DNA from: Kiritimatiellia bacterium
Lineage (GTDB): Bacteria; Verrucomicrobiota; Kiritimatiellia; RFP12; UBA1067
DNA: 40,478 bases
NCBI GenBank assembly: GCA_017450695.1
Contig: JAFSTA010000231.1
Coordinates: forward strand, 1 to 40,478
Direction of reading: 5' to 3'
A program made the position numbers and the translations under genes. The first letter of the stretch is position 1. Every line of letters begins with the position of its first letter. The notes below the pieces were generated by a model, which saw only the letters and a program-made list of their open reading frames with translations, searched no databases and was not told the DNA's origin. Below, one piece after another: positions 11,122-35,833 of the stretch.

Positions 11122-14100
11122 TTAGCGGATGCTCAAAATCGTGCCGATCCTGCCGACATAGATGCGGAGGGCGTTGCTCTTCGTGACAAGGACCACATCC
11201 GACTGGTTGAAAACAGGCGTACCCGTAATGGAAGAGGCTGTCGCGAGCGTCAACACGCCCTTCCCCGTCGCCGCCAGCGCGTTATCTACAACGATCTCCG
11301 CGCCTGAAAGGTCGAGCGTACCGCCGACATCCAGCCGTCCGCATGTGCCGTTGTCATCCAGCTCGAACGCCAGCTTTGCGGGCGTGAGTGTGCCGTCCGT
11401 CACCGTAAGCGTTCCCTTGTCGGGGTACCCTGGCCACACCGTCCCCGTCACGGTCAGCGAGCCGTTCGTCACCACTCCGCTCCCCATCAGGTTCGCCACC
11501 GTGTGCGCCTTCTCCGAGAGATCGACCGTCGCACCCGTCGCGACGCGCAGGGTCGTTGTGGTGGGCAGACTCAACGCATCCGTCACGGCCAACGTACCGT
11601 TCGAAACACACGTGGCACAGAGATAGGTGTTCGTGCCGTGCAACGTCAGCGTCCCGGCACCGATCTTCGTAAGCGCGGGCGCCACATCGAGATCCGCCGC
11701 CGACGTCCCGTCCACGTCCCACGTCTGCCCTGCCCGCGCGGCGAAGTCCTGCGCGAAGGTCAGGTTGAAGCCCGCCGTATCCACCGTCGCGCCGCCCACG
11801 CCGACCGAGGCTGCCGTGAAGCCGTGGAGGAAGTTCGTCGTGGCGGCGCTCGTGTTGGCGATGAGCGTGCCGCCGTCGAGGACGAGCGTAGATGTGTCAT
11901 TCGTGCAGGCGCTGTACAGGCGCCGCACCTTCAGCGTGCCGTTCGTGAGGACATTGACCGTACCGCTGCGTCCATGGAGAACCGAGTTATTCGGCAATGC
12001 GCAGACTACGCCGCTCACCTCCGCCCAGCCGCCGTTCGAGACCTCCATTGAGCCTTTGCCTTGATACCCCACGTAAAGTATAGCACCGTTGTACGGCATC
12101 TTGAACGTGCCGCCGCGCACGTAGATGTTGCCCGTGTCCGTACCGCTCGTCTTGTCGCTGTGTCCGCCCGTCTTGTACCGGCCGAGATAGCCGTACTGGC
12201 AACGCATGATGGCCTCGCCCCCGTAGATGAACAGGTTGCCGGTCGGCGACCCCTTCGATGTCAAGATTCCGAGGTGGAAACCATTGCCTTTTGTTGCCTG
12301 CGTCCGATCAAGCGTTCCTCCGTAGAGGTAGTAGCTGAACGTGCCGTTTCCGTGGCATCCGAGTCGCAACGACCCCGTGTCTGACTTTGTAACCTTTACA
12401 GTCCCGCTATACTGCCGGATGGTTCCGTGACGACCATGAAGGTAGCCCATCGACAGCTGCGCATCGTTCGTGACGATCACGTCGCCCGTCCCGTAGTTAC
12501 TGCCCGAACTGTAGTAGCCGGGGTAGAGATAGTTACTGCCCAGCGACACGGTTGTTCCATCAAGGACAAACGTGCCGGTCTTCCCCGTGATGCGGTTCCC
12601 GGGGTACCAGCTTCCGGAACTCGTGACCGACCCGCCCAGGAAGGTCACATGGGTTCCGCCGTGAGACGTGAGACCCGCGCAATTGACGGTCGTGTTCGAG
12701 AACACGACCTGTGCGTTGTTCGTCACGGTGGTCCACCCAACTGCCTTGAACGCGGTATTGGTCACCAGCGTCGTTCCGTTACCTTTGATCGTGACAACCC
12801 GCAGGTTGTTCGTACCGTCCAGCAGGAGCGTACCGTTTCCCGACCTGACGAAGGAGCGGTCGTTCGTCACCGCGCCCTTGACGACAGCTGTTCCCTCGAC
12901 CGCGAATTCAACGACGTTGCTGCCGCTGTCTATGCCGTTTTCAAAGGTCAGCGTGTCGGTGGCGTAGGCGTCGTTCAGGATCAGGGTTGTCAGCGAATAC
13001 ACGTCGTTGCTTGTGACGAACGGAACGGTCGCGTCGTTGCCGTACCGCACCGTCAACGGATGACCGTAGGCCGAGAAGCCTGTCTCCGTTGCGTCTGCCG
13101 CCACCGACACCTGTCCACCGCCCGTGCCGAACGTTCCCGTGAACGTGTTCGCCGTGAGCGGACAATAGATGCCACCTTTGAGGATCAGATTGTCCGTGGC
13201 GGCGAGTCCCTCTCCGAAATCCGCCACGAGCGTACCCTCGTAAACGGTAAACGCGCCACCCCAGTCGTTCTCGCCCGAGAGCGTGAGCGGCGCCGGGCCG
13301 CGCTTCGAGCCGCCCGCCGGGAATGTGAGCGATGCCGTTTCGACGAAGGGCATCGGCGTCGTGTAGTCCGGAATCGCCTGTGACCAGAGTGCCGAATCAC
13401 CCACGACCGTATCTCCGTCTTCAATACCACCCACCACGCGTCCACCGACCGCCGTCAACGCCGTCTTGCCGCCGGACGGGTAGAACTTGTTGTTCACGGT
13501 GTCGTACAGTCCCGCCACGCCGTTGGACACGGCCGGATGGAAATCGCGTACGCACACGCCATTGTTCGTGATGATGCAGGAATAGATCGTCGCGCCGCAT
13601 TGCTTGTCGATCGCCGTGTTGGAAGTCGAGCGTCCAAACAATGACAGACCGTAACTTGCGGTAGCCGTATGGGCCTCAAAGGATGTCCGCGAGGCCGTGG
13701 CGCTCGGCGTAGTAACGGTAAACACCGACGCATTCGTTCCGTTTACGACGGCCGTCGTGTCCAGCGTGATCTGTGTTCGTTCCGTCGTAGCTTCTAGCGT
13801 GGTCGGGTTCGACCAGGATCCGCCCCCGTTGTTGCTGGAGAACGCCCATTTTCCTGTGTCGCCAGAACCGTTGACGTAGGCACACAACGAGTATGTCTTG
13901 TTGACACCAAATATGTACTGCTGCGTGGTTGATGCTGTCAACTTGAAGTCGATGGTAACCGAGGTCTTCCCGCCGACAGGTTTGAACGAGGTGTTGACGA
14001 AGCAGTTTGTACTTTTCGTGGACTTGACGCCCTCGATGAAGTAGTCATACGCTTTCGCGGAAGTAGCCAACATCGCACGGCAGGCGTACTGCCCCGTCAG

Positions 14101-14382
14101 GAATGCGGCGGTCGGCAACGCGAACTCGTAGCTTGTCGCGTCATCGGCCACGCGATCCACGCGATAGGCGTTCGGCCAGTCGGCGAGGGATGTTCCCTTG
14201 TCTATGCCGTCGGTACTCCACACGTAGTAGAGTACGTGCGAATCGCCCTCGCTTCCCGCATCGAACGACACCGTAACCATACCGTTCGCCACCGACAGCC
14301 CGGTCACGTCACGCGCCGAAGCCGCCGATCCAACCAACAACGCCAATACGCCAACTACAAACTCCGCAATCCGCCTCATCAT
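11122..14382 (-). CDS. Large secreted beta-strand-repeat surface protein with LamG-like N-terminal part
   Basis: This is a protein of about 1086 residues. I chose the ATG at 14382 (or the adjacent 14379) because a purine-rich GAAAGG lies nine bases upstream and the product then begins directly with a signal peptide (MRRIAEFVVGVLALLVGSAASA). The N-terminal third carries a motif (VRDFHPAVSNG, GLYD, FYPSGG) found in LamG/concanavalin-like modules of secreted proteins in this lineage. The rest consists of Gly/Thr/Asn-rich autotransporter-associated beta-strand repeats such as GAGTLTLHGTNTY. No outer-membrane beta-barrel is visible. The C-terminus GTILSIR closely matches GTIIQIR of the protein at 31607. 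Likely cell-surface or matrix protein; ligand unknown. Confidence 0.8.
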   Translation of the reverse strand: MMRRIAEFVVGVLALLVGSAASARDVTGLSVANGMVTVSFDAGSEGDSHVLYYVWSTDGIDKGTSLADWPNAYRVDRVADDATSYEFALPTAAFLTGQYACRAMLATSAKAYDYFIEGVKSTKSTNCFVNTSFKPVGGKTSVTIDFKLTASTTQQYIFGVNKTYSLCAYVNGSGDTGKWAFSSNNGGGSWSNPTTLEATTERTQITLDTTAVVNGTNASVFTVTTPSATASRTSFEAHTATASYGLSLFGRSTSNTAIDKQCGATIYSCIITNNGVCVRDFHPAVSNGVAGLYDTVNNKFYPSGGKTALTAVGGRVVGGIEDGDTVVGDSALWSQAIPDYTTPMPFVETASLTFPAGGSKRGPAPLTLSGENDWGGAFTVYEGTLVADFGEGLAATDNLILKGGIYCPLTANTFTGTFGTGGGQVSVAADATETGFSAYGHPLTVRYGNDATVPFVTSNDVYSLTTLILNDAYATDTLTFENGIDSGSNVVEFAVEGTAVVKGAVTNDRSFVRSGNGTLLLDGTNNLRVVTIKGNGTTLVTNTAFKAVGWTTVTNNAQVVFSNTTVNCAGLTSHGGTHVTFLGGSVTSSGSWYPGNRITGKTGTFVLDGTTVSLGSNYLYPGYYSSGSNYGTGDVIVTNDAQLSMGYLHGRHGTIRQYSGTVKVTKSDTGSLRLGCHGNGTFSYYLYGGTLDRTQATKGNGFHLGILTSKGSPTGNLFIYGGEAIMRCQYGYLGRYKTGGHSDKTSGTDTGNIYVRGGTFKMPYNGAILYVGYQGKGSMEVSNGGWAEVSGVVCALPNNSVLHGRSGTVNVLTNGTLKVRRLYSACTNDTSTLVLDGGTLIANTSAATTNFLHGFTAASVGVGGATVDTAGFNLTFAQDFAARAGQTWDVDGTSAADLDVAPALTKIGAGTLTLHGTNTYLCATCVSNGTLAVTDALSLPTTTTLRVATGATVDLSEKAHTVANLMGSGVVTNGSLTVTGTVWPGYPDKGTLTVTDGTLTPAKLAFELDDNGTCGRLDVGGTLDLSGAEIVVDNALAATGKGVLTLATASSITGTPVFNQSDVVLVTKSNALRIYVGRIGTILSIR

Positions 14383-14417
14383 CGCTTCCATCCTTTCACC
14401 TTGTTCCATCACCACCG

Positions 14418-25001: not shown

Positions 25002-25943
25002 ATGAAACGGATACTGTTCATGGTGTTGACGGTCGTGGGTGTCACGGCGGCATGGGCGAAGGAAACGAAGGTACTGATCATCGGGAACAGTTTTTCCATC
25101 AGCGTGATGCGGAACTGGCCGCAGCTTGCGAAGGCGTCCGGAACCGAGCTGGACGCGGCCAGCATGTACATCGGAGGATGCTCCCTCGCGCGTCATTGGG
25201 AGAATGTCGAGAAGTCGTCGAATCCCAACTTCAAGCCGTATGAAATCTGGCGGAACAACGCGGCTGGGACAAAGCGGTTCAAGTCCAACATCCCACAGAT
25301 GCTGGCGGCGGATAAATGGGACTTCGTGACAATCCAGCAAGCGAGCCACGAGAGTTGGAAACCGGAGACCTTCCATCCTTGCGCGGACAAGCTGATCGCC
25401 AAGATCAAGGAACTTGCCCCCCAAGCGGAAATCGTGATTCAGCAGACGTGGGCGTATTCCAACCTCGACAAGCGCATCCTGCCCGGCGGGGAGTGGGGTT
25501 TCGACCAGTCGGGGATGTATGACCGCCTAACCTCCAGTTACTCGTCGCTGGCGAAACAGTTTCATCTTCGGATGCTTCCGACGGGACTCGCCGTCCAGAA
25601 ATTCCGCAAGGCGTTGCCCGTCACTCTCGTCCGGCCGTCGGACGAGACCCTGAAAGCACTGGTCCGGCCAGCCTTGCCGGACATGGGCGGCGAAGCGGTG
25701 GGACGTTTCAGCTGGGTGCGAGAGAAGGACAAGAGCGATAAACTTCGGGAAGACACCCTTCACCTGAACAAGTCCGGCGAGTATCTGCAGGCACTCGTCT
25801 GGCAGGCGTTCTTCTTCGGCACGGACGTGACCAAGACCACGTACATACCCGCACACGCGGGTTCAAAAGATCGGGCGTCCCTGTTGCAATCCTGCGCCGC
25901 CGAAGCCGTGAAAGAGGCTGCAACCGCATTCGATTTCCGGTAG
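25002..25943 (+). CDS. Secreted SGNH/GDSL-type hydrolase (DUF4886-like)
   Basis: This 313-residue protein has a Sec signal peptide (MKRILFMVLTVVGVTAAWA, cleavage near residue 19). An SGNH-type block I follows, GNSFS with the nucleophile at Ser30. The C-terminal catalytic pair is in DTLHL (Asp251, His254). The spacing and the IGGCSL segment fit DUF4886 family SGNH hydrolases, which are common in polysaccharide-utilisation loci and thought to remove acyl groups from glycans. Its place ahead of a sialidase operon suggests an accessory carbohydrate esterase, perhaps acting on O-acetylated sialic acids; the substrate is inferred from context only. Confidence 0.8.
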   Translation: MKRILFMVLTVVGVTAAWAKETKVLIIGNSFSISVMRNWPQLAKASGTELDAASMYIGGCSLARHWENVEKSSNPNFKPYEIWRNNAAGTKRFKSNIPQMLAADKWDFVTIQQASHESWKPETFHPCADKLIAKIKELAPQAEIVIQQTWAYSNLDKRILPGGEWGFDQSGMYDRLTSSYSSLAKQFHLRMLPTGLAVQKFRKALPVTLVRPSDETLKALVRPALPDMGGEAVGRFSWVREKDKSDKLREDTLHLNKSGEYLQALVWQAFFFGTDVTKTTYIPAHAGSKDRASLLQSCAAEAVKEAATAFDFR

Positions 25944-26584: not shown

Positions 26585-27376
26585 ATGCGAACATCGTTTA
26601 TTTCATCTGCGGCAGTCGCCGTTTTGCTCTGTATGCCTGTATTCTGCGCGAATGCGGAAGCGGTCCAGGTTAAGGTTCCCGTTGAGACACTGCCCGCCGC
26701 AAGGATGGAGACACGGACGAGAGATTCGCGCGATCCGGGGATTTTCGGAGACTACTGGTGGGCGAACCGCTTCCTAAGCCGTCACCAGCAGATCGAAAAA
26801 GCGCGCGGGAAGACGGTTGATCTCGTCCTCCTGGGAGACTCCATCATGCATTTCTGGGAATGGAAACATCCCGCGAGCTGGGGAAAACTGGCGAACGGGC
26901 GTACGGTCTTGAATCTCGGTTATGGAGGCGACCGGACCCAGCATGTCATCTGGCGTGTCGAACACGGGGAGCTGGACGGTTACAAGGCGAAAAACATCAT
27001 CTTGATGATCGGCACCAACAACAACTATTCGAGGGACACCAATCCGGCGAATGTCGCGCTGGGGGTTCAGAAAATCATTTCGTTGATCCGGGCGAAACAG
27101 CCGGAGGCCCGCCTGATACTCCATCCGATCTTTCCAAGCGGGCGTTCCGCCGATTCCAAGCGCCATGCCGACGCCCGTACGCGAAACGAGAAGACGAACG
27201 TACTTCTCAAGGCGTTTGCCGACACGCATCCCGAAATTGTCTGGATTGACTTCAACGCGAAGTTGCTGGATTCGACGGGTTGGGTACCCCAGGCGATTAT
27301 GCCGGATGAAATCCATCCGTCCGATGCGGGATACGACATCTGGATGGAGGCCGTGCTGCCTCATCTGCGCCAGTGA
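26585..27376 (+). CDS. Secreted SGNH/GDSL esterase
   Basis: This 263-residue protein has a Sec signal peptide (about 24 residues, ...VLLCMPVFCANA). All four GDSL blocks are present: block I LLGDSI with nucleophile Ser86; block II GYGGD; block III GTNN; block V DEIHPSDAG with Asp241 and His244. This matches the lipolytic GDSL/PAF-acetylhydrolase-like group, which includes many carbohydrate and sialate O-acetylesterases. AAGGA precedes ATG 26585 at close spacing. The gene lies 540 nt upstream of the sialidase operon and is a good candidate for de-O-acetylating host sialoglycans; this is a contextual inference. Confidence 0.85.
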   Translation: MRTSFISSAAVAVLLCMPVFCANAEAVQVKVPVETLPAARMETRTRDSRDPGIFGDYWWANRFLSRHQQIEKARGKTVDLVLLGDSIMHFWEWKHPASWGKLANGRTVLNLGYGGDRTQHVIWRVEHGELDGYKAKNIILMIGTNNNYSRDTNPANVALGVQKIISLIRAKQPEARLILHPIFPSGRSADSKRHADARTRNEKTNVLLKAFADTHPEIVWIDFNAKLLDSTGWVPQAIMPDEIHPSDAGYDIWMEAVLPHLRQ

Positions 27377-27916: not shown

Positions 27917-28864
27917 ATGGCGAAAGAGGAGAGAGAGTTTTTTCAGTCGTTTCCGATCTATTTGCGGACACCGGAGACGGTTGTGGTTGATCTGTCGAGG
28001 GACGGGATTCCTTGCATTCCCGTCTTGGGCGATACGCATTATCGCCATGCCGGGACAGGCACCAAGCCCCATGTCCACCCCGGCATGATCGAGATTCTTT
28101 TCTGCCGGCGCGGCCTCAGTCTCTCGTTCGATTATGGAGGAACGATCCATCCTTTTTTGCCGGGAGACGTCTTTGTAGCGCAGCCGGATGTTCCCCATTT
28201 CCTGCGTTCCTATCCGAAAAACCTCGCGATGTACTGGATCTGGTTCCGTCTTCCGCAATCGGGGAAATCCGTGCTGGGACTCTCCGCTTCCGAGTCTCGG
28301 TGGCTGGTGTCGAAACTGCGATCGCTTCCCGTCCGTTTCTCCGGGGGCGATTTCGCCGGACGAGCCTTCCGCCGACTGTGGCAACTCTATTCGGATGATT
28401 CGAGCAAGCCGGTCGAACGCCGTCTGCTGTTGCGGGACGCGGTGCTTCACCTCCTGTTGAGACTGGTCGAAATATCGGTCAACCAGCCGCCTACCGGAGA
28501 TGACGATGCGGCTCTCCAAGCCGTCATCGAGGAGATGCGCCAACATCCTGACGCAGACTATCCGATCGAGGAACTGATGCGCCGCACGGCGATGTCGGCT
28601 CCGAAACTGTCCATCCTTTTCAGAAGGTGGACAGGGTTGCCGCCACACGCCTTTCTCGTCTCCTGCCGCATGGCGAAGGCAAAAGAGGCGCTGACCTCGA
28701 CAAGTCAGAGCATCACGGAGATCTCGCGAAAGCTTGGATTTCCGTCCGCGCAGCATTTTGCCACACAGTTTCGGCGCGACACGGGGTACACGCCGAGCAG
28801 TTGGCGCACACAGCACCGTACAGAACAATCGAAAGGAAACAAACGAGAAGATGAAAAGACGTGA
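27917..28864 (+). CDS. AraC-family transcriptional regulator
   Basis: This 315-residue protein has an N-terminal cupin-like sensor region (about 48-95: HPGMIEILFCRRG ... LPGDVFVAQPDVPH) and a C-terminal AraC double helix-turn-helix (about 210-298, ending in the family signature SITEISRKLGF...FATQFRRDTGYTP). Such regulators usually bind a sugar and switch on the adjacent catabolic genes. It is the first gene of the sialidase operon and overlaps the next gene by 14 bp. The natural ligand is probably a sialic acid or its cleavage product, by context. There is no in-frame ATG downstream that would allow a normal leader; AGGAGA occurs just inside the coding region instead. Confidence 0.88.
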   Translation: MAKEEREFFQSFPIYLRTPETVVVDLSRDGIPCIPVLGDTHYRHAGTGTKPHVHPGMIEILFCRRGLSLSFDYGGTIHPFLPGDVFVAQPDVPHFLRSYPKNLAMYWIWFRLPQSGKSVLGLSASESRWLVSKLRSLPVRFSGGDFAGRAFRRLWQLYSDDSSKPVERRLLLRDAVLHLLLRLVEISVNQPPTGDDDAALQAVIEEMRQHPDADYPIEELMRRTAMSAPKLSILFRRWTGLPPHAFLVSCRMAKAKEALTSTSQSITEISRKLGFPSAQHFATQFRRDTGYTPSSWRTQHRTEQSKGNKREDEKT

Positions 28865-29870
28865 CTTCATCCGTATGGGAACCATCGCAAGCGCGTCAGC
28901 CGCGGCGATGGGAACGAACGTAAAAGCGGAAACGACGGGATCGCCCGTCTTTCCCGTTCCGTCCGGCGCCGAATTCGCTGGAATGGCGGGCGCCTACGCC
29001 GCGCTTGTCACACCGTACCACCCCGACGGCTCGGTGAACGAGGAGATGATCGAGAAGATTGTCGAGTTCGGATTGTCGAACGGGCTGACGGGATTCTACC
29101 TGACCGGATCCACCGGCGAGGGATTCCTCCTTTCCGTCGAAGAACGCAAGACGGTGTACGACCGGGCGGTCAAGGCAGCGAGGGGACGCGCCAAGTTGAT
29201 CGCGCACGTCGGATGCCTCGCCACGCGCGATGCCGTGACGCTAGCCCGCTACGCGGCGAAGATCGGCATCGACTGGGTTTCCTCCGTCGCGCCCGTGTAT
29301 TTCGGGCAGAACTTCGACGCCGCGTTCGCCCATTACAAGACAATCTCCGAAGCGACGGATCTGCCGTTCATGATCTACTCCATCGGACAGCAGATCGTGC
29401 CGGAACGAGACGTCCGCATCTTCGAGCTGAAAAACGTGAAGGGCATGAAGTACACCGGTTATGCCTACTGGACGGTGAAGACGCTCCGCCGACGTCTGCC
29501 CCACCCCGCAATCTTCTTCGCGGGCGCGGACGAGCAGGAGTTGTGCGCGTTTGCGTATGGCGACACCTTCAGCGGCTGCATCGGCACCACGGACAACATG
29601 ATTCCCCGCCACCACGCGCAGATTTGCCGCCTGGCCGCAGCCGGACGATTCGCCGAGGCCGCGCCGCTCATGGACGAGGTCGCGCGGTTCGTCGAGCTCG
29701 TCATCGGTGCGCCCCACGCCTCGTACTGGAAGAGCGTCATGCGCTACATCGGACTGGACAGCGGTCCGGCGAGGTCGCCGGCCGGCCAGCCTCTCACCGA
29801 AGAGGAGTACGCCGCCTACGCGCGCAAGATCGACGCCCTCGGCTTCATCAGGAGAAACGACCATGCCTGA
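28851..29870 (+). CDS. Tat-exported N-acetylneuraminate lyase-like aldolase (DHDPS/NAL family)
   Basis: This 339-residue protein starts at ATG 28851 inside the AraC gene, with a twin-arginine signal (KRRDFIRMG then an Ala-rich stretch). The enzyme is a DapA/NanA TIM barrel. It has GSTGE at 86-90 (the form seen in sialate lyases, where DapA has GTTGE), LIAHVGC as in NanA, Tyr176 in MIYSIG, and the Schiff-base Lys200 in GMKYTG. NanA cleaves N-acetylneuraminate to N-acetylmannosamine and pyruvate. The long frame extending upstream is only AraC DNA in another register. Bacterial NanA is normally cytoplasmic, so the export signal is the odd feature. A related 2-keto-3-deoxy acid aldolase remains possible. 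Confidence 0.82.
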   Translation: MKRRDFIRMGTIASASAAAMGTNVKAETTGSPVFPVPSGAEFAGMAGAYAALVTPYHPDGSVNEEMIEKIVEFGLSNGLTGFYLTGSTGEGFLLSVEERKTVYDRAVKAARGRAKLIAHVGCLATRDAVTLARYAAKIGIDWVSSVAPVYFGQNFDAAFAHYKTISEATDLPFMIYSIGQQIVPERDVRIFELKNVKGMKYTGYAYWTVKTLRRRLPHPAIFFAGADEQELCAFAYGDTFSGCIGTTDNMIPRHHAQICRLAAAGRFAEAAPLMDEVARFVELVIGAPHASYWKSVMRYIGLDSGPARSPAGQPLTEEEYAAYARKIDALGFIRRNDHA

Positions 29871-30408
29871 CAAAATCGCCGCACTTTGCTGTTTCGCACT
29901 GGCAGCCCTCTTTCTGCCCCGCGGACTTTCCGCCGCAGAAAGCTGTCGTCCTTCCGCCGTCTTCGGAACCATCGCGGAGGCGGATCAACACGCCGCGCTC
30001 CATCCCCGTTTCGCGAAGGCTTTCGCCTTCCTGCGCGGAGACCTTTCCAAGCTGAAGCCGGGAGAACGGTACGAGATCGACGGCTCGAACTGCTGGGCGT
30101 TCGTCCAGGACTGCACGCTCAAACCCGTTACCGACCAGAACCAATACGAGGCACATGGCGCATTCATCGACATCCAGGCTCCGATCTCTGGGGATGAGAC
30201 CTACGGCACGATGAAGACGCCGCCCGACGCGCGGGCGCACTTCGACGCGAAAAAGGACATCGTGCTGTTCCGGGCGAAGGGCGAAATCCGCACCCTGCGT
30301 CCGGGCGAGTTCGCGATTTTCCTTCCACCTTACGGGGCGCATGCGCCGGGACTTTCGGAAGACGGTCCACGCCGCATCCGCAAAATCGTCATCAAGGTCC
30401 GCGACTGA
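29863..30408 (+). CDS. Secreted YhcH/YjgK/YiaL (TabA/NanQ-like) protein
   Basis: This 181-residue protein starts at ATG 29863, overlapping the lyase stop by 8 bp, with AGGAGA upstream. It begins with a signal peptide (CCFALAALFLPRGLSAA). The mature part fits the YhcH/TabA cupin-like family (YEIDGSN, AHGAFIDIQAPISGDE, FLPPYGAHAPGL, RKIVIKV). YhcH/NanQ of E. coli speeds opening or mutarotation of N-acetylneuraminate and is encoded with nanA. Here the protein appears to be exported like its lyase neighbour, which supports an extracytoplasmic pathway. The upstream in-frame extension is lyase DNA in another frame and was rejected. Confidence 0.82.
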   Translation: MPDKIAALCCFALAALFLPRGLSAAESCRPSAVFGTIAEADQHAALHPRFAKAFAFLRGDLSKLKPGERYEIDGSNCWAFVQDCTLKPVTDQNQYEAHGAFIDIQAPISGDETYGTMKTPPDARAHFDAKKDIVLFRAKGEIRTLRPGEFAIFLPPYGAHAPGLSEDGPRRIRKIVIKVRD

Positions 30409-30442
30409 CCCGGACGCGGCCTAACACAAAGGAGAGTCTGTC

Positions 30443-31573
30443 ATGCACAATCTGCTTCTTATCTCTGCGATCATTCTCGCGGAAAGCGTCTGCGCGGATC
30501 CCGCAGCCGGTGTCCACGTCGGGCTGGAGCTGCCGCCCGGTCCGGACAACCCGCGCAACAGCGAGGGATCGTTCCTTCCGCTCAAGGACGGACGTATCCT
30601 CTTCGCCTACTCGCGTTATTACGGCAATTCCAAATCAGACCACGCGACGGCGGACATCGCCGCGCGTTACTCATCCGATCAAGGCAGAACCTGGACGACG
30701 AACGATACGATCCTCGTGAAGAACGAGGGCGGCATGAACGTGATGAGCGCCGGTCTGCTCCGCCTCCAAAGCGGCGAAATCGCCCTCTTCTATTTGCGCA
30801 AGAACAGCACCTCGGATTGCCGTCCCATTCTGCGCCGTTCCTCCGACGAAGGTGAGACATGGTCGGATCCGACGGTCTGCATTACCGACGAGGTGGCCTA
30901 TTTCGTCGTCAACCACGACCGTGTGATCCAGCTGAAGGACGGAAGGCTGCTCTTCGCGGCATCCAGGCACAGCTTTCCGAACGGAAGGTTCAACGGCAGG
31001 GGACTCGTGATGACCTATTTTTCGGATGACAACGGCAAGACGTGGCGGCGCGGGAAATCCGAACTGAGCGTCCGCACGCCAGGCGGCCGCTTCTACTCCG
31101 CGCAGGAACCCGGCTTGATCCAGCTGAAGGACGGAAGCATCCTGATGTGGATCCGCTCGAACGGCGGATGCCAGTTCACGAGCCGCTCGACAGACCGGGG
31201 CGAAACCTGGTCTTCCCCGCAGCCGTCGTGGCTTGCTTCCCCGGAGTCTCCGGCCAGCGTCAAGCGCCTACCGTCCGGCGACCTGCTCGCGGTCTGGAAC
31301 GACCGGGAATCGCAACCGACGCTGAAGAAGAAGGTCAATCCCGGCCGCCGCACCCCGCTTGTCTCCGCGATCTCGCGCGACGAAGGGAAGACGTGGGGCA
31401 ACGTGAGACTGATCGAGGACGATCCGGACGGCTGGTTCTGCTACACAGCCCTCGAACCGCTGGACGACGGAACGGTGCTGCTTGGCTACTGCGCCTACAA
31501 GGGCCTCGCCCATTCACGCCTCGTGAAAATCCCGATCGGCTGGTTCTACCAGCAGGCAAAAACGACCGAATAA
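30443..31573 (+). CDS. Secreted BNR/Asp-box exo-sialidase
   Basis: This 376-residue protein has a short Sec signal (MHNLLLISAIILAESVCA). Five Asp boxes give the six-bladed propeller signature: SSDQGRTW, SSDEGETW, SDDNGKTW, STDRGETW and SRDEGKTW. The order and length agree with GH33-like sialidases or related BNR-repeat exoglycosidases. The FRIP motif is not evident in standard form, so substrate preference is less certain. AAGGAG precedes ATG 30443. It lies 34 bp after the YhcH gene and 33 bp before the giant surface protein, within one operon. It probably releases terminal sialic acids from host or environmental glycans. Confidence 0.84.
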   Translation: MHNLLLISAIILAESVCADPAAGVHVGLELPPGPDNPRNSEGSFLPLKDGRILFAYSRYYGNSKSDHATADIAARYSSDQGRTWTTNDTILVKNEGGMNVMSAGLLRLQSGEIALFYLRKNSTSDCRPILRRSSDEGETWSDPTVCITDEVAYFVVNHDRVIQLKDGRLLFAASRHSFPNGRFNGRGLVMTYFSDDNGKTWRRGKSELSVRTPGGRFYSAQEPGLIQLKDGSILMWIRSNGGCQFTSRSTDRGETWSSPQPSWLASPESPASVKRLPSGDLLAVWNDRESQPTLKKKVNPGRRTPLVSAISRDEGKTWGNVRLIEDDPDGWFCYTALEPLDDGTVLLGYCAYKGLAHSRLVKIPIGWFYQQAKTTE

Positions 31574-31606: not shown

Positions 31607-34600
31607 ATGAGAACGAACCGAATGATATGTGCGATGATTTTCTTGGTATGCTGGGGGGGGTATCGAGTATACGCCGCTAACTACTACTGGAGCGGCGGCG
31701 GGAATGACGGCCTGTGGACAACCGCGTCGAACTGGCGCACGGGAAGCGCCACGGGAAGCGTGGCAAGCACTTACCCGAAATCCAACGGCGACAACGCCTT
31801 CTTCACGTCCTCCGCGACGGTCACGCTCGACACCGGCTCGACATTGACGGTAGGGTCGATCCGGCTGTCCAAGAACGTAGGGACCGTCACCCTGAACGGC
31901 ACGGCGGGATCCGTTCTCACCCCGGTGAAAACACCAAAGCAAAACGAAAGCGGGCTCGTCGTAAACCAGGGAAGCAAGCTGATTCTGAACGTGCCGATAT
32001 CCGCCACCGGTCGCATCGACAAGTGGCAGACGGGGGAGCTCGAGATCAACGCGAACCTGTCGGAAACGGCGTCCGGCTACGCGCTTGTCTTCGGTGGCGG
32101 CACGACGGCCATCGGCGGGGATACCTCGGTTTCCGTTCCGAACGGAATGCTGGCCGTGGCGAACGGCGGCGCCACGGGCAGTTACGCGGAGCTTCTCCTT
32201 CGGGACTCCGCACGTATCGATGCCAACCAGTGCAAGACCTCGGTCAGCTCAGGCGGATACGACGCTCGCATCGTGCAGGACGGCGACGAGACGCAGATGA
32301 ACATCGCGACCACGCTGGAACTGTCCACCGGATCCGGACACGCCAATCTAGACATCTATGAACTGAAACGCGGGACACTCGCGGTGACGCAGTCCCTGAT
32401 CCTCGGCGCCGGCGGCAGCCCCGCGCGATTCGTCCAGAGCGGCGGCGCGGCATCCGTCTCGAACATCTCGGCGAACGCGGAAGGATGCCTCGTCGACCTT
32501 TCCGGCGGGACGCTCACCATCGGTACGGCGACCGCCTCCGGCGAGATTTCCGTACCGCTGAACCTGAGCGGGACGCCGACGCTGGATATTCCCGGCAGGT
32601 ATCTCGACCTGCCGGACGAAACGACGTTCGCGCCCGGCACCGCCCTCACCAAAACAGGGGAAGGGATTCTGCGGGTCGGACACGACCAGGTCGTGGACGG
32701 CTCCCTTACGGTGGAGAACGGGTATTTCCTAGTGGGTACACCGGATGGCGACACGGTCGAGGTGCGGGCGCCGTTGGGCGACCATTCGGCGTGGCCCGTC
32801 ACGGTGAAGAGCGGCGGTTTTTTCCAACTCCACACCATCAACGCGCGCGTGACGCGCCCCCTCGCGCTCGCTCTGGAACCGGGCGGAAAGGTGCGCTTTC
32901 CCCAAGCGAACAGCAAATCCTGGAACCGCACGGCGATCGTGGCGCATTCGCTCACGACGAACGGCGTTGCGCTCGCCAAGGGGCGTTACACCAACGCGGC
33001 GACTTCGCTCGGATCTTTTCTGGCGGACTGCCTAGAGCCGGCTTCCATCCTCGTGCCGTATGTCTGGACTGGAAACGGCGACGGCACGAGCTGGTCGGAC
33101 GGGGCCAACTGGGAGGGCGACGCGGTACCGCCGTCCAGCTCGGACGCTGCGGTGGACTTCTCACGCGCGGGCGGCAAGACCATCACCCTGAGCGAAGAAA
33201 AGACCGTCACCTGCATCATCTTCAATCCCCAGGGACTCGCCCGGAATCTCACGATCGCCGGGACGGGCACGATCATCCACGCCTGTCCGGACTACTCCTG
33301 CGGGATGTTCATCGGCCCGGGGCGTGAACTGACGCTCGACGTGAACCTGGTCAAGCAGGACTACAGCACCAAGCCGGCCATCATCGGCGGCGGAAATCTC
33401 ATCGTGAAGAAGAACTTTCCGGGATGCGGCCAGAAGATCGGCTCGGTGTACTCGCTCGACGCCACGGTCACGTTCGCGGGGACGACCTCGTTAATCACCT
33501 CCGAAAACCTCAAGATGCTCAGCTTCTTCACGCACGAAAACCAGGGGCGTTCCCGCGTCGTGTTCGGAAACGGATGCTCGCTTTCCTGCCTCCGGGTCGT
33601 GCCGTCCCCATCCGGTCTCTATCCCTGCGACGAAATCGTCCAGGACGGGGCGGAGATCGAGATGACCGACATCTACGTCACCCGGCACAACATGTTTTCC
33701 CGCTCGCCATTCTCTTACACGCTCGAAAGCGGGACCCTGACCCTCGCGAACGGCGTTTACCTGGGAAGTTTCCTGACAAAGGATTTCACGCGCTTTCCGG
33801 GCGGCTCGTTCGTCATGAACGGCGGCGTCTTGACACTGGGCCAGTTCGCCACCCAGCGCTACAACAATTATTTCTACCTGTACGGAGGGGACATCTACCT
33901 GAAGAACGGATTCCGGATCGCGTTCGATTCGCGGAATCTGGATAGCCCGGCCATCACGAACCGTTACCCCGTGGTTCTGGGCGGCGCCCGGATCCACTCA
34001 ACGGGCGACTGGGCGGGAGACCTCGAGGTGAACATGACGGGAAAGAACGGCGCGACGACGTTCGACACCGCGGGTTACAACGCCGCGTTCAACGAAGAGG
34101 TGAAGGGAACGGGCGGTCTCGTCAAGACGGGGAACGGCTCCCTGACGTTCGCGGGGGCGGTAACCTTCACCGGTCCCGTTACCGTCAACGGCGGCAGCGT
34201 GGTGTTCGATTCAACCGCCACGGTGAACGGGCCTGCGGACTTTACCGTCAACACGGGTTCTCTCTCTTTCCAGACCGTCCCCGCGGCTGAATTGGAGAGT
34301 ATCGCCGTGCCGACGGCGAACGACCTGGCTGTCTCGGCCGCCATATCGGGACTCATCTCGGTGAAGCGGCTCGTCATCGGAGGAGTCCCGCAACCGGCCG
34401 GCAGCGTCGCCGTCAACGGCGGTACGGTCACCGTGTCGGGAACCTCCATGAGCGTCTGGCAGGGCGCGAACGGGGGCGCATGGTCGCTACCTGCAAACTG
34501 GACGGGGGACGTGCCAGACGGCGCGACGGCGGAAGTCGATTTCGGTTACTCCACGCTCGCGGTGGAGGCGTCCATTTCGCTGGATGCGGACGTGACGCTG

Positions 34601-35833
34601 AAGGTGTTGACCTACCGTGCCGCGGACGGTGCCTCGCTGCGGCTAACGGGCGCGAACGCGCTGACGCTTGTGGCGAAGGGCGCGATCACCGTCCCGGCCG
34701 GCAACACGCTGATTCTGGACGTGCCGCTCACCTTGGGCGGCGAGGTTCTCAAGAAAGGCGGAGGCAAGCTGGTCGTCAACGGCGGCATATCCACTCCCGG
34801 CGGATCGGATATCTATTGGCTGACTACGCAGAAAGGCGAGGTCGTGGTGAACAGTCCCGTCAGCCTGTGCCGTCTGCGCTCGGAAGATCCGGAACGCCTC
34901 ACCATGCCTGCGGTGACGCTCGGCGCGGATGCGCTCGTAAGCAACAGCGTAGCCATCAACGCGGGGTGGGTGAACGGATGCGGCGAAATCGTCCAGAACG
35001 GCGGCGAGGTCAGCCTGAACCCGCCGACGCTAGGGTTCGCGAACGGCGGATACTGGGCGTTGTCCCACTCGGCAAACTGCTACGGGCGCTATACGCTGAA
35101 CGACGGCAAGTTTATCCTTCCGGCCACGGGCGAAGGTAGGCCTGCGCACTCCTCGGCAACGGCGGACTTCATCCAGAACGGCGGTCTCTTCTCGGTGACC
35201 CGGTTTGCCATGTACGCTACGGAGCCGTCCACCTACACGCTGAACGGCGGAACGCTGGAAATCGGAGAGTACTGGTCGGGGGACGCCGCCCATTCGGGCG
35301 CGGTTTCGCTCAACGGCGGAACAGTTCTCTCCAAGGCGGACGAAGCGATTTTCCGGCAGGCGATCGACATTGAGCTGGGCGGCGACGTGACTTTTACGCA
35401 GGTCACCGAACAGGTATCGGCCACATTGTCTTCGCCGATTGCCGGCGCGGGGACGATCCGTCAGGCAGGTCCCGGTACCCTGACGCTTGCGGGGTGCCAC
35501 TATTTCACGGGCGCGGTGACGGTAGATGGCGGCACGCTCGGTATCGAAACGCCGACAATCGTGACGAACCTCGCGGCGACGGCCGGATCGCTCCGTTTCG
35601 GCTCAGCCGGACTGTTGAGCGAGGAGGCGACGCTGGACCTCGGTGCGAACGGTACGCTGACGCTCGACGGCGAAGGCGAGACAACCGTCCGGAAACTTTT
35701 CCTGAATGGGATTGAACGGAGGGCGGGGCGGTACAGCGCGACGGACAACAATCCGGGAAACCGCCTTTCCGGAGACGGCGTGCTGATCGTTCTCGAAGGG
35801 AACGAACTCGGCACTATCATTCAGATCCGCTAG
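31607..35833 (+). CDS. Giant secreted autotransporter-associated beta-strand repeat protein
   Basis: This 1408-residue protein has a Sec signal peptide (about 22 residues, ending YRVYA) and AAGGAG before ATG 31607. Almost the whole length is repeated beta-strand-rich Gly/Thr/Asn sequence. It includes PATR-type units such as KTGNGSLTFAGAVTFTG and GPGTLTLAGCHYFTGAV and recurring WSGGGNDGLW / WTGNGDGTSW motifs. No translocator barrel is seen. The C-terminus GTIIQIR resembles the end of the minus-strand protein at 11122. A run of eight G (31653-31660) lies in the signal-peptide codons. As the last gene of the sialidase operon it may be an adhesin or glycan-binding scaffold. Confidence 0.85.
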   Translation: MRTNRMICAMIFLVCWGGYRVYAANYYWSGGGNDGLWTTASNWRTGSATGSVASTYPKSNGDNAFFTSSATVTLDTGSTLTVGSIRLSKNVGTVTLNGTAGSVLTPVKTPKQNESGLVVNQGSKLILNVPISATGRIDKWQTGELEINANLSETASGYALVFGGGTTAIGGDTSVSVPNGMLAVANGGATGSYAELLLRDSARIDANQCKTSVSSGGYDARIVQDGDETQMNIATTLELSTGSGHANLDIYELKRGTLAVTQSLILGAGGSPARFVQSGGAASVSNISANAEGCLVDLSGGTLTIGTATASGEISVPLNLSGTPTLDIPGRYLDLPDETTFAPGTALTKTGEGILRVGHDQVVDGSLTVENGYFLVGTPDGDTVEVRAPLGDHSAWPVTVKSGGFFQLHTINARVTRPLALALEPGGKVRFPQANSKSWNRTAIVAHSLTTNGVALAKGRYTNAATSLGSFLADCLEPASILVPYVWTGNGDGTSWSDGANWEGDAVPPSSSDAAVDFSRAGGKTITLSEEKTVTCIIFNPQGLARNLTIAGTGTIIHACPDYSCGMFIGPGRELTLDVNLVKQDYSTKPAIIGGGNLIVKKNFPGCGQKIGSVYSLDATVTFAGTTSLITSENLKMLSFFTHENQGRSRVVFGNGCSLSCLRVVPSPSGLYPCDEIVQDGAEIEMTDIYVTRHNMFSRSPFSYTLESGTLTLANGVYLGSFLTKDFTRFPGGSFVMNGGVLTLGQFATQRYNNYFYLYGGDIYLKNGFRIAFDSRNLDSPAITNRYPVVLGGARIHSTGDWAGDLEVNMTGKNGATTFDTAGYNAAFNEEVKGTGGLVKTGNGSLTFAGAVTFTGPVTVNGGSVVFDSTATVNGPADFTVNTGSLSFQTVPAAELESIAVPTANDLAVSAAISGLISVKRLVIGGVPQPAGSVAVNGGTVTVSGTSMSVWQGANGGAWSLPANWTGDVPDGATAEVDFGYSTLAVEASISLDADVTLKVLTYRAADGASLRLTGANALTLVAKGAITVPAGNTLILDVPLTLGGEVLKKGGGKLVVNGGISTPGGSDIYWLTTQKGEVVVNSPVSLCRLRSEDPERLTMPAVTLGADALVSNSVAINAGWVNGCGEIVQNGGEVSLNPPTLGFANGGYWALSHSANCYGRYTLNDGKFILPATGEGRPAHSSATADFIQNGGLFSVTRFAMYATEPSTYTLNGGTLEIGEYWSGDAAHSGAVSLNGGTVLSKADEAIFRQAIDIELGGDVTFTQVTEQVSATLSSPIAGAGTIRQAGPGTLTLAGCHYFTGAVTVDGGTLGIETPTIVTNLAATAGSLRFGSAGLLSEEATLDLGANGTLTLDGEGETTVRKLFLNGIERRAGRYSATDNNPGNRLSGDGVLIVLEGNELGTIIQIR

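Follow-up and report, generated by a model that had tools for sequence, protein, structure and literature searches.

The sialic-acid pathway of Escherichia coli is among the closest described systems to the genes considered here. In it, the ring of N-acetylneuraminate is opened by YhcH (NanQ), a cytoplasmic protein proven to feed the lyase NanA; according to the same 2021 paper, no DUF386 member had been assigned a function before it (PMC8141875). In a review, transport into the cell is the step that follows release (PMC10017367), and both sources treat sialic-acid aldolases as cytoplasmic, the intact sugar being imported once it has been released (PMC8141875, PMC10017367). Among the matches listed for the open-access literature, as far as the partial texts go, no exported N-acetylneuraminate lyase (NAL) was found. 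The lyase of Trichomonas is said in older work to be possibly secreted; nothing clearly on it turned up in the open-access literature. Here we describe an operon from a Kiritimatiellia bacterium, lying in a stretch of 40,478 nucleotides (contig JAFSTA010000231.1; hereafter the window), in which an NAL-type lyase, a YhcH/DUF386 protein and a sialidase-superfamily protein all begin with export-type N-termini. We put at roughly 0.52 the probability that this operon serves the use of sialic acid in the periplasm, as a branch parallel to ordinary import.

The window corresponds to contig C140 in a draft genome of 5.03 Mb (completeness 97.7%, contamination 3.2%), the nearest named relatives of which are Kiritimatiellae and Verrucomicrobia drafts, several of them from ruminant gut by their record titles. 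An earlier note on this DNA, made from the sequence alone, had described three genes packed together behind an AraC regulator, and this arrangement is borne out:

27917 to 28864, plus strand: AraC-type regulator without signal, with a cupin-like N-terminus and an HTH_18 C-terminus (Pfam HTH_18 74.7 bits, AraC_binding 33.2 bits)
28851 to 29870, plus strand: DHDPS/NAL-family lyase, on the NanA side, with a signal of the twin-arginine translocation (Tat) type (Pfam DHDPS, PF00701, 196.4 bits; tree; active-site residues)
28851 to 28928, plus strand: twin-arginine signal of the lyase, MKRRDFIRMGTIASASAAAMGTNVKA, read from the sequence, cleavage after VKA being a guess
29863 to 30408, plus strand: YhcH/DUF386 protein with a Sec-type signal, likely a sugar anomerase (Pfam DUF386 103.1 bits)
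30443 to 31573, plus strand: sialidase-superfamily exo-glycosidase (BNR) with a Sec-type signal (BNR_2 135.5 bits; AlphaFold model)

The araC gene and the lyase gene overlap by 14 bp, the lyase gene and yhcH by 8 bp; yhcH and the sialidase gene are 34 bp apart, and all four lie on the plus strand. A promoter scan stayed at chance level (3 sites observed, 2.6 expected) and terminator-like sites numbered 15 for 11.0 expected (standard deviation 3.1); the operon is taken to be beyond chance because the same gene set recurs in relatives.

In the mechanism that we favour, an exported sialidase-fold enzyme would detach a keto acid of the sialic type from a glycan, exported YhcH would accelerate the opening of its ring and the Tat-exported lyase would split the open form into N-acetylmannosamine (ManNAc) and pyruvate outside the cytoplasm. 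Both products would then be taken up, ManNAc passing through an AGE-type 2-epimerase to N-acetylglucosamine and on to the Nag route. Gene content and its conservation, signal-type N-termini, lyase clade and active site, sialidase fold and the parallel import operon can be read from the sequence; we infer that the proteins are exported in the cell, that sialic acid is the substrate, that the three proteins act jointly, that the products are taken up and that the location is periplasmic, not the outer surface. The gene set, the signal-type N-termini, the active site and the fold agree with the release, ring opening and cleavage outside the cytoplasm that had been proposed in the earlier note, though not as a replacement for import.

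The lyase has 339 residues, about 44 of which stand ahead of the DHDPS domain, and its N-terminus reads MKRRDFIRMG. Its best 25 matches among solved structures are all NALs. Placing it in an NAL/DHDPS tree, a check that had been suggested beforehand, sets it on the NanA side and not with DapA, YagE or YjhH: among the 47 proteins of this tree, E. coli NanA groups with 40 lyases from the lineage (support 100/99), and those three enzymes, together with three other DHDPS-family proteins of this genome, lie outside that group, the depth being uncertain in view of the long branches of NanA and the outgroups (a warning given by the tool). The NanA residues S47, T48, Y137, K165, T167, G189, D191 and E192 are all kept in the window lyase; we take K165 and Y137 to be the Schiff-base lysine and the catalytic tyrosine, D191, E192 and T167 to serve the sialate side and S47-T48 to belong to the pyruvate pocket. 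The curated models score 196.7 bits for PRK04147 (281 needed), 158.9 bits for TIGR00683 (382 needed) and 128.8 bits for dapA (also below its cut-off), and the protein is called NAL-type, instead of a proven NanA, because it falls under the NCBI equivalog cut-offs.

Within this group, the window lyase belongs to a clade of 12 rows (99/97), or of 14 rows (93/85) with the deeper L042 and L050. The sister of the window-lyase clade consists of 12 lyases without signal (100/99), the two being joined at 100/98. A second exported clade, which includes the lyase on contig C64 of this genome, is separate; it holds eight lyases (100/100), and all eight carry S47G and E192Q. The tree left out the repeats L143, L146, L154 and L156 and the fragments L152 and L068. 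The L068 lyase lies in pieces across more than one frame, and L066 and L152, which may be two ends of one gene (their terminal 131 bases are 92% identical), were never both used for the same count.

Export signals were judged from the motif R-[RK]-x-F-[ILM] and from the best 12-residue hydropathy. The motif stands ahead of the domain in all 14 lyases of the window clade and, with L065 (GTG start) read by hand, a twin-arginine motif is found in 8/8 lyases of the second exported clade; in its loose form, this motif is unspecific, occurring in the first 20 residues of 49 out of 527 genes of at least 100 residues (loci L035-L068 and L139-L178, some doubled). The N-termini of YhcH and of the BNR protein reach hydropathies of 2.75 and 2.30, compared with 1.10 for the signal-less YhcH of this genome and 1.38 for E. 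coli NanQ, and TatC is encoded in the genome. The export signals that the earlier note had read on the lyase, YhcH and sialidase can be seen as export-type N-termini, by motif for the first and by hydropathy for the other two, and the three proteins are probably exported in the cell. If L065 is counted as exported, the exported state changes twice on the lyase tree. More distant and possibly exported DHDPS-fold proteins are also present in the lineage, one of them adjoining an exported-type YhcH (L142:2-1870 and 1924-2487; L031:9092-10186).

The YhcH protein of the window has the E-x-H, D and H-x-P positions in common with E. coli NanQ, and the E-x-H, D and H of DUF386 are presumably metal ligands. 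Its description as NanQ-like stands at the level of the subfamily, with 69.6 bits for TIGR00022 (cut-off 45.5), but not at that of the NCBI N-acetylneuraminate anomerase model, for which it scores 70 bits with a cut-off of 160. Fusions in a single polypeptide are found in relatives, in the form of a YhcH-BNR-GH3 protein of 1263 residues (L154), a YhcH-sialidase (L155) and a sialidase-YhcH (L151), and they provide good evidence that YhcH and sialidase act together. Two small conserved proteins also adjoin nan genes (L164:4400-4906 and L164:4903-5361, neither with a Pfam match; likewise in L042, L043, L045 and L057); in L042, L170 and L178, the first of them (MxPSDHFVxFYNE) and YhcH are joined.

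For the BNR protein, an AlphaFold model built from six aligned sequences, counting that of the window itself, reached a pLDDT of 81 and a pTM of 0.84. Its top structural match is 4j9t (Z 35.3), described as a designed metalloprotein, and it superimposes on two bacterial sialidases, 2ber from Micromonospora viridifaciens with Z 35.1 (root-mean-square deviation 2.8, 317 residues) and 1eus with Z 34.7 (2.6, 314 residues). Six residues, R38, D66, E222, R238, R303 and Y334, are invariant in 20/20 sequences, the window's among them, and we take them to be the arginine triad, the acid aspartate, the glutamate and the nucleophile tyrosine. In two separate searches, solved sialidases align with E222, R238 and Y334; R303 is aligned in one of the two (in the best alignment of the other it is the neighbouring R302 that is), and R38 and D66 are assigned to the catalytic set by order and spacing. 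Model and invariant residues support a sialidase fold with its catalytic set. The best solved-sequence profile match is 9eob (E 7.1e-23), with 8axi and 8axs at E 3.4e-22. In two of the loci the sialidase is joined to a GH3 enzyme, the two GH3 domains standing in swapped order (L154:2378-6169 and L175:3235-6534).

The operon was compared with the loci of the 12-row lyase clade and the fragments L152 and L068, which come from ruminant-gut Kiritimatiellae. The araC gene adjoins the lyase gene in all 13 judgeable loci (12 at 45 bits or more, plus the cut araC of L068), upstream in 11 and downstream in L038 and L068, and a BNR sialidase is present in each of the ten loci with downstream sequence, none of which has an SSS symporter. 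Adding the deeper rows L042 and L050 gives 14/15 for araC, 11/12 for the sialidase and 7/12 for YhcH, and an additional locus, L238, combines araC, a Tat-lyase and a sialidase. Across the lyase tree, a BNR protein of at least 150 bits shares the locus with 16 of the 22 exported lyases and with one of the 18 signal-less ones (Fisher p 2e-5), and an SSS symporter does so with 0/22 and 10/18, respectively (Fisher p 5e-5). These p values are overstated, given that the rows are related and that the signal changes only twice on the tree; loci are, in addition, cut by contig ends. Three of the signal-less lyases (L049, L051 and L056) have a weak sialidase-like neighbour of 30-33 bits, under the 150-bit threshold. 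At the level of the family, the lyase is detected at E 1e-60 in 40 of 114 genomes, a sialidase relative at 1e-30 in 38 and a full-length lyase of the window type (at least 70% identity) in 11, and NanE exceeds its cut-off in none of the 114, with weak matches in 16. A more general proposition, that of a conserved extracytoplasmic pathway of release, enzymatic ring opening and aldol cleavage parallel to import, in which the compartment of the lyase matches its partner (sialidase outside, symporter inside) and exported YhcH is a general ring-opener module on many secreted glycan enzymes, seems to us evenly poised between true and false.

The import route itself is found elsewhere in the genome. 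Contig C9 carries a signal-less lyase, 65% identical to that of the window, next to a single protein that combines a NanM-like mutarotase with an SSS symporter, so that transporter and signal-less lyase stand together there and not in the window operon. The earlier note had taken the exported route to act instead of import, a view that is not supported: such a cytoplasmic nan operon with a transporter is one of the findings that the note itself had named as refuting it. Its remark that no sialic acid transporter is seen applies to the window but not to the genome. The search for nagA and nagB that it had recommended does yield nagB- and nagA-like genes on contig C67, below NCBI cut-offs and together with another symporter, and an AGE-type epimerase besides; NanE was not found in this genome. 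A ManNAc-using route is therefore plausible and, because of the lyase-mutarotase-symporter set of C9, the AGE-type epimerase and the nag-like genes, the genome looks able, to judge from its sequence, to import sialic acid and use it inside as well. The exported set is a parallel branch and no replacement for import.

SSS symporters of signal-less lyase operons bear an N-terminal domain of about 125 residues (L048:4175-5986, L043, L045 and L057), and that of L164:2580-4397 has a similar one by eye; Pfam gives it no name (tested on L048), and it may take the place of the mutarotase. A ceramidase-like protein (L048:6955-8316; PF04734, 36 bits) lies near 10 of the 18 signal-less lyases, the other loci being L040, L043, L045, L046, L047, L052, L053, L055 and L058, and one idea is that gangliosides serve as food.

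Several observations weigh against a periplasmic branch of sialic-acid use, and we set them out with the explanations that compete with it. YhcH occurs in six of the ten conserved loci, being missing from L035, L038, L039 and L175; in L042, the Tat-lyase stands behind a signal-less YhcH and nothing matches the sialidase; in L050, a sialidase is present but neither araC nor YhcH is matched. Our chief reservation concerns the substrate, followed by the possibility that the lyase signal is unused.

It is conceivable, if unlikely, that the same exported chemistry acts on another ulosonic acid, be it 2-keto-3-deoxynononic acid (Kdn) or 3-deoxy-D-manno-octulosonic acid (Kdo) from pectin (rhamnogalacturonan II, RG-II) or lipopolysaccharide, with pyruvate and a different sugar as products. 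Enzymes with the sialidase fold and aldolases of the NAL type each act on several keto acids, and YhcH is a general module in this lineage and no pointer to sialic acid, because relatives also have exported YhcH domains on GH28, NPCBM-GH27 and M14 enzymes, and YhcH on a beta-helix protein. GH3 domains, atypical for work on sialoglycans, are present in the sialidase reading frame in five of ten loci, and the N-terminal arginine of the window sialidase, which is not filed as GH33, lies in N-P-R-N-S-E-G in place of the FRIP motif. Against a different substrate speak the D191/E192 pair of NanA, kept in the lyase, the close signal-less relative of the lyase that adjoins a NanM-like mutarotase and a symporter on C9, and the AGE-family epimerase found in 71/114 family genomes and in 10 of those 11 that have a full-length lyase of the window type. 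The AGE gene of this genome, on contig C167, is split over two frames.

Slightly less probable again is a scheme in which the exported sialidase and YhcH make sialic acid ready for import, a task that falls to NanM in E. coli, with a weak or unused lyase signal and cleavage inside the cell. This would suit the full import operon of the genome and the symporters of the lineage with their N-terminal mutarotase or other domain. The N-terminus of the window lyase is also weakly hydrophobic, its value of 1.22 being no higher than that of NanA (1.39), so that the argument for a signal comes from the motif. Moreover, contig C155 (L023:328-569) holds what appears to be a second copy of the operon in which araC and the lyase have been lost and YhcH kept. 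Its intact YhcH is 77% identical to that of the window and has a hydrophobic start (2.44). A 48-residue frame before yhcH resembles the lyase signal at its start by eye, matches the lyase end over its last 19 residues (tblastn) and shares 8 bp with the yhcH start, just as the window lyase gene does, a stop/start overlap perhaps kept for translational coupling, and a 32-residue frame further upstream resembles the araC start by eye. On contig C269, a second intact sialidase, 74% identical, has no lyase within the 16 kb seen. Because of this decayed copy and this lyase-free sialidase, YhcH and sialidase can outlive the lyase, which counts against a strict mutual need. Against an unused signal stand the motif in 14/14 and 8/8 lyases of two exported clades, and the exported lyases, of which none out of 22 lies beside the transporter.

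The exported lyase is, in addition, usually not the sole NAL-type lyase of its genome. It had appeared to be so in G101, G102, G104, G106, G148 and G149 at E 1e-60, an idea abandoned when a wider search found a signal-less lyase in five of the six, G149 (64% complete) giving no such match. These five signal-less lyases are 27-28% identical to NanA and have D191, E192 and S208, but T47 and N167. Only that of G148 adjoins nan genes (an AGE fragment, a sialidase and a symporter); those of G101, G102, G104 and G106 have no nan neighbours among the genes probed.

We consider it improbable that the exported lyase is no longer a sialic acid aldolase and binds or senses sialic acid or carries out another reaction. 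It lacks the NanA loop 140-143, has S208T and scores below both curated NAL cut-offs, but the loop is missing from all 40 lineage lyases, the signal-less and transporter-linked ones included, and the Schiff-base lysine and tyrosine are kept. Least probable of all is an ordinary cytoplasmic Nan pathway with signals produced by start-site errors, since alternative internal starts do exist but signals with a conserved motif recur in related genomes, which led us to reject chance start codons as their source, and the YhcH of the decayed copy also starts hydrophobic.

Three further genes flank the operon:

31607 to 35833, plus strand: large surface-type protein of 1408 residues with autotransporter-associated repeats (PATR 37.4 bits)
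26585 to 27376, plus strand: GDSL/SGNH hydrolase, signal-bearing, upstream of the operon (Lipase_GDSL_2 92 bits)
25002 to 25943, plus strand: DUF4886 protein, signal-bearing, upstream of the operon (DUF4886 152.5 bits)

The PATR protein starts 33 bp past the end of the sialidase and is possibly on the same transcript; in locus L149 a PATR protein likewise follows the sialidase. Large proteins, at least one of which has autotransporter repeats, end in similar C-termini (GTIIQIR, GTILSIR, GTVISVR and GLIILLR; window 31607-35833 and 11122-14391, L025:11889-14753 and L022:16-774), and this common end may be a sorting signal. The GDSL/SGNH hydrolase and the DUF4886 protein have no match of at least 45 bits in the 41 other loci compared, and a role as sialate O-acetylesterases finds no support in that comparison.

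If true, export of an aldolase together with a dedicated ring-opener would shift cleavage outside the cytoplasm and change who can share the products, with ManNAc and pyruvate replacing sialic acid as the goods on offer. It would also suggest a use for exported YhcH domains, and closely related lyases inside and outside within one genome would amount to a natural experiment.

Among known systems is the sialidase Amuc_1547 (GH181) of Akkermansia muciniphila (PMC10067855, PMC12018670). The chains 8axi and 8axs, which we take to belong to it, are among the best profile matches of the window sialidase, yet the match spans part of the domain, and with this partial likeness a placement in GH181 or GH33 is putative. 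The window resembles the nanATEK-nanQ genes of E. coli, with their periplasmic NanM, in joining a NanA-side lyase and a YhcH-type protein in one operon; it differs from them in the export signals of both proteins, in having a sialidase and araC where E. coli has transporter, epimerase and kinase, and in a genome from which NanE is missing. Like the YhcH/NanQ anomerase of PMC8141875, the window YhcH is a DUF386 protein that keeps the E, H, D and H positions, but the E. coli protein is described as cytoplasmic, whereas that of the window bears a Sec-type signal and its counterparts in relatives are fused to a sialidase. The import-type nan operons of the lineage (contig C9; L054; L043, L045 and L048), with lyases 60-68% identical over their best segments, differ in that the lyase is signal-less and lies beside an SSS symporter with a mutarotase or other N-terminal domain, and the mutarotase-symporter fusion accompanied by NAL and AGE is already known in Tenacibaculum (PMC5561996).

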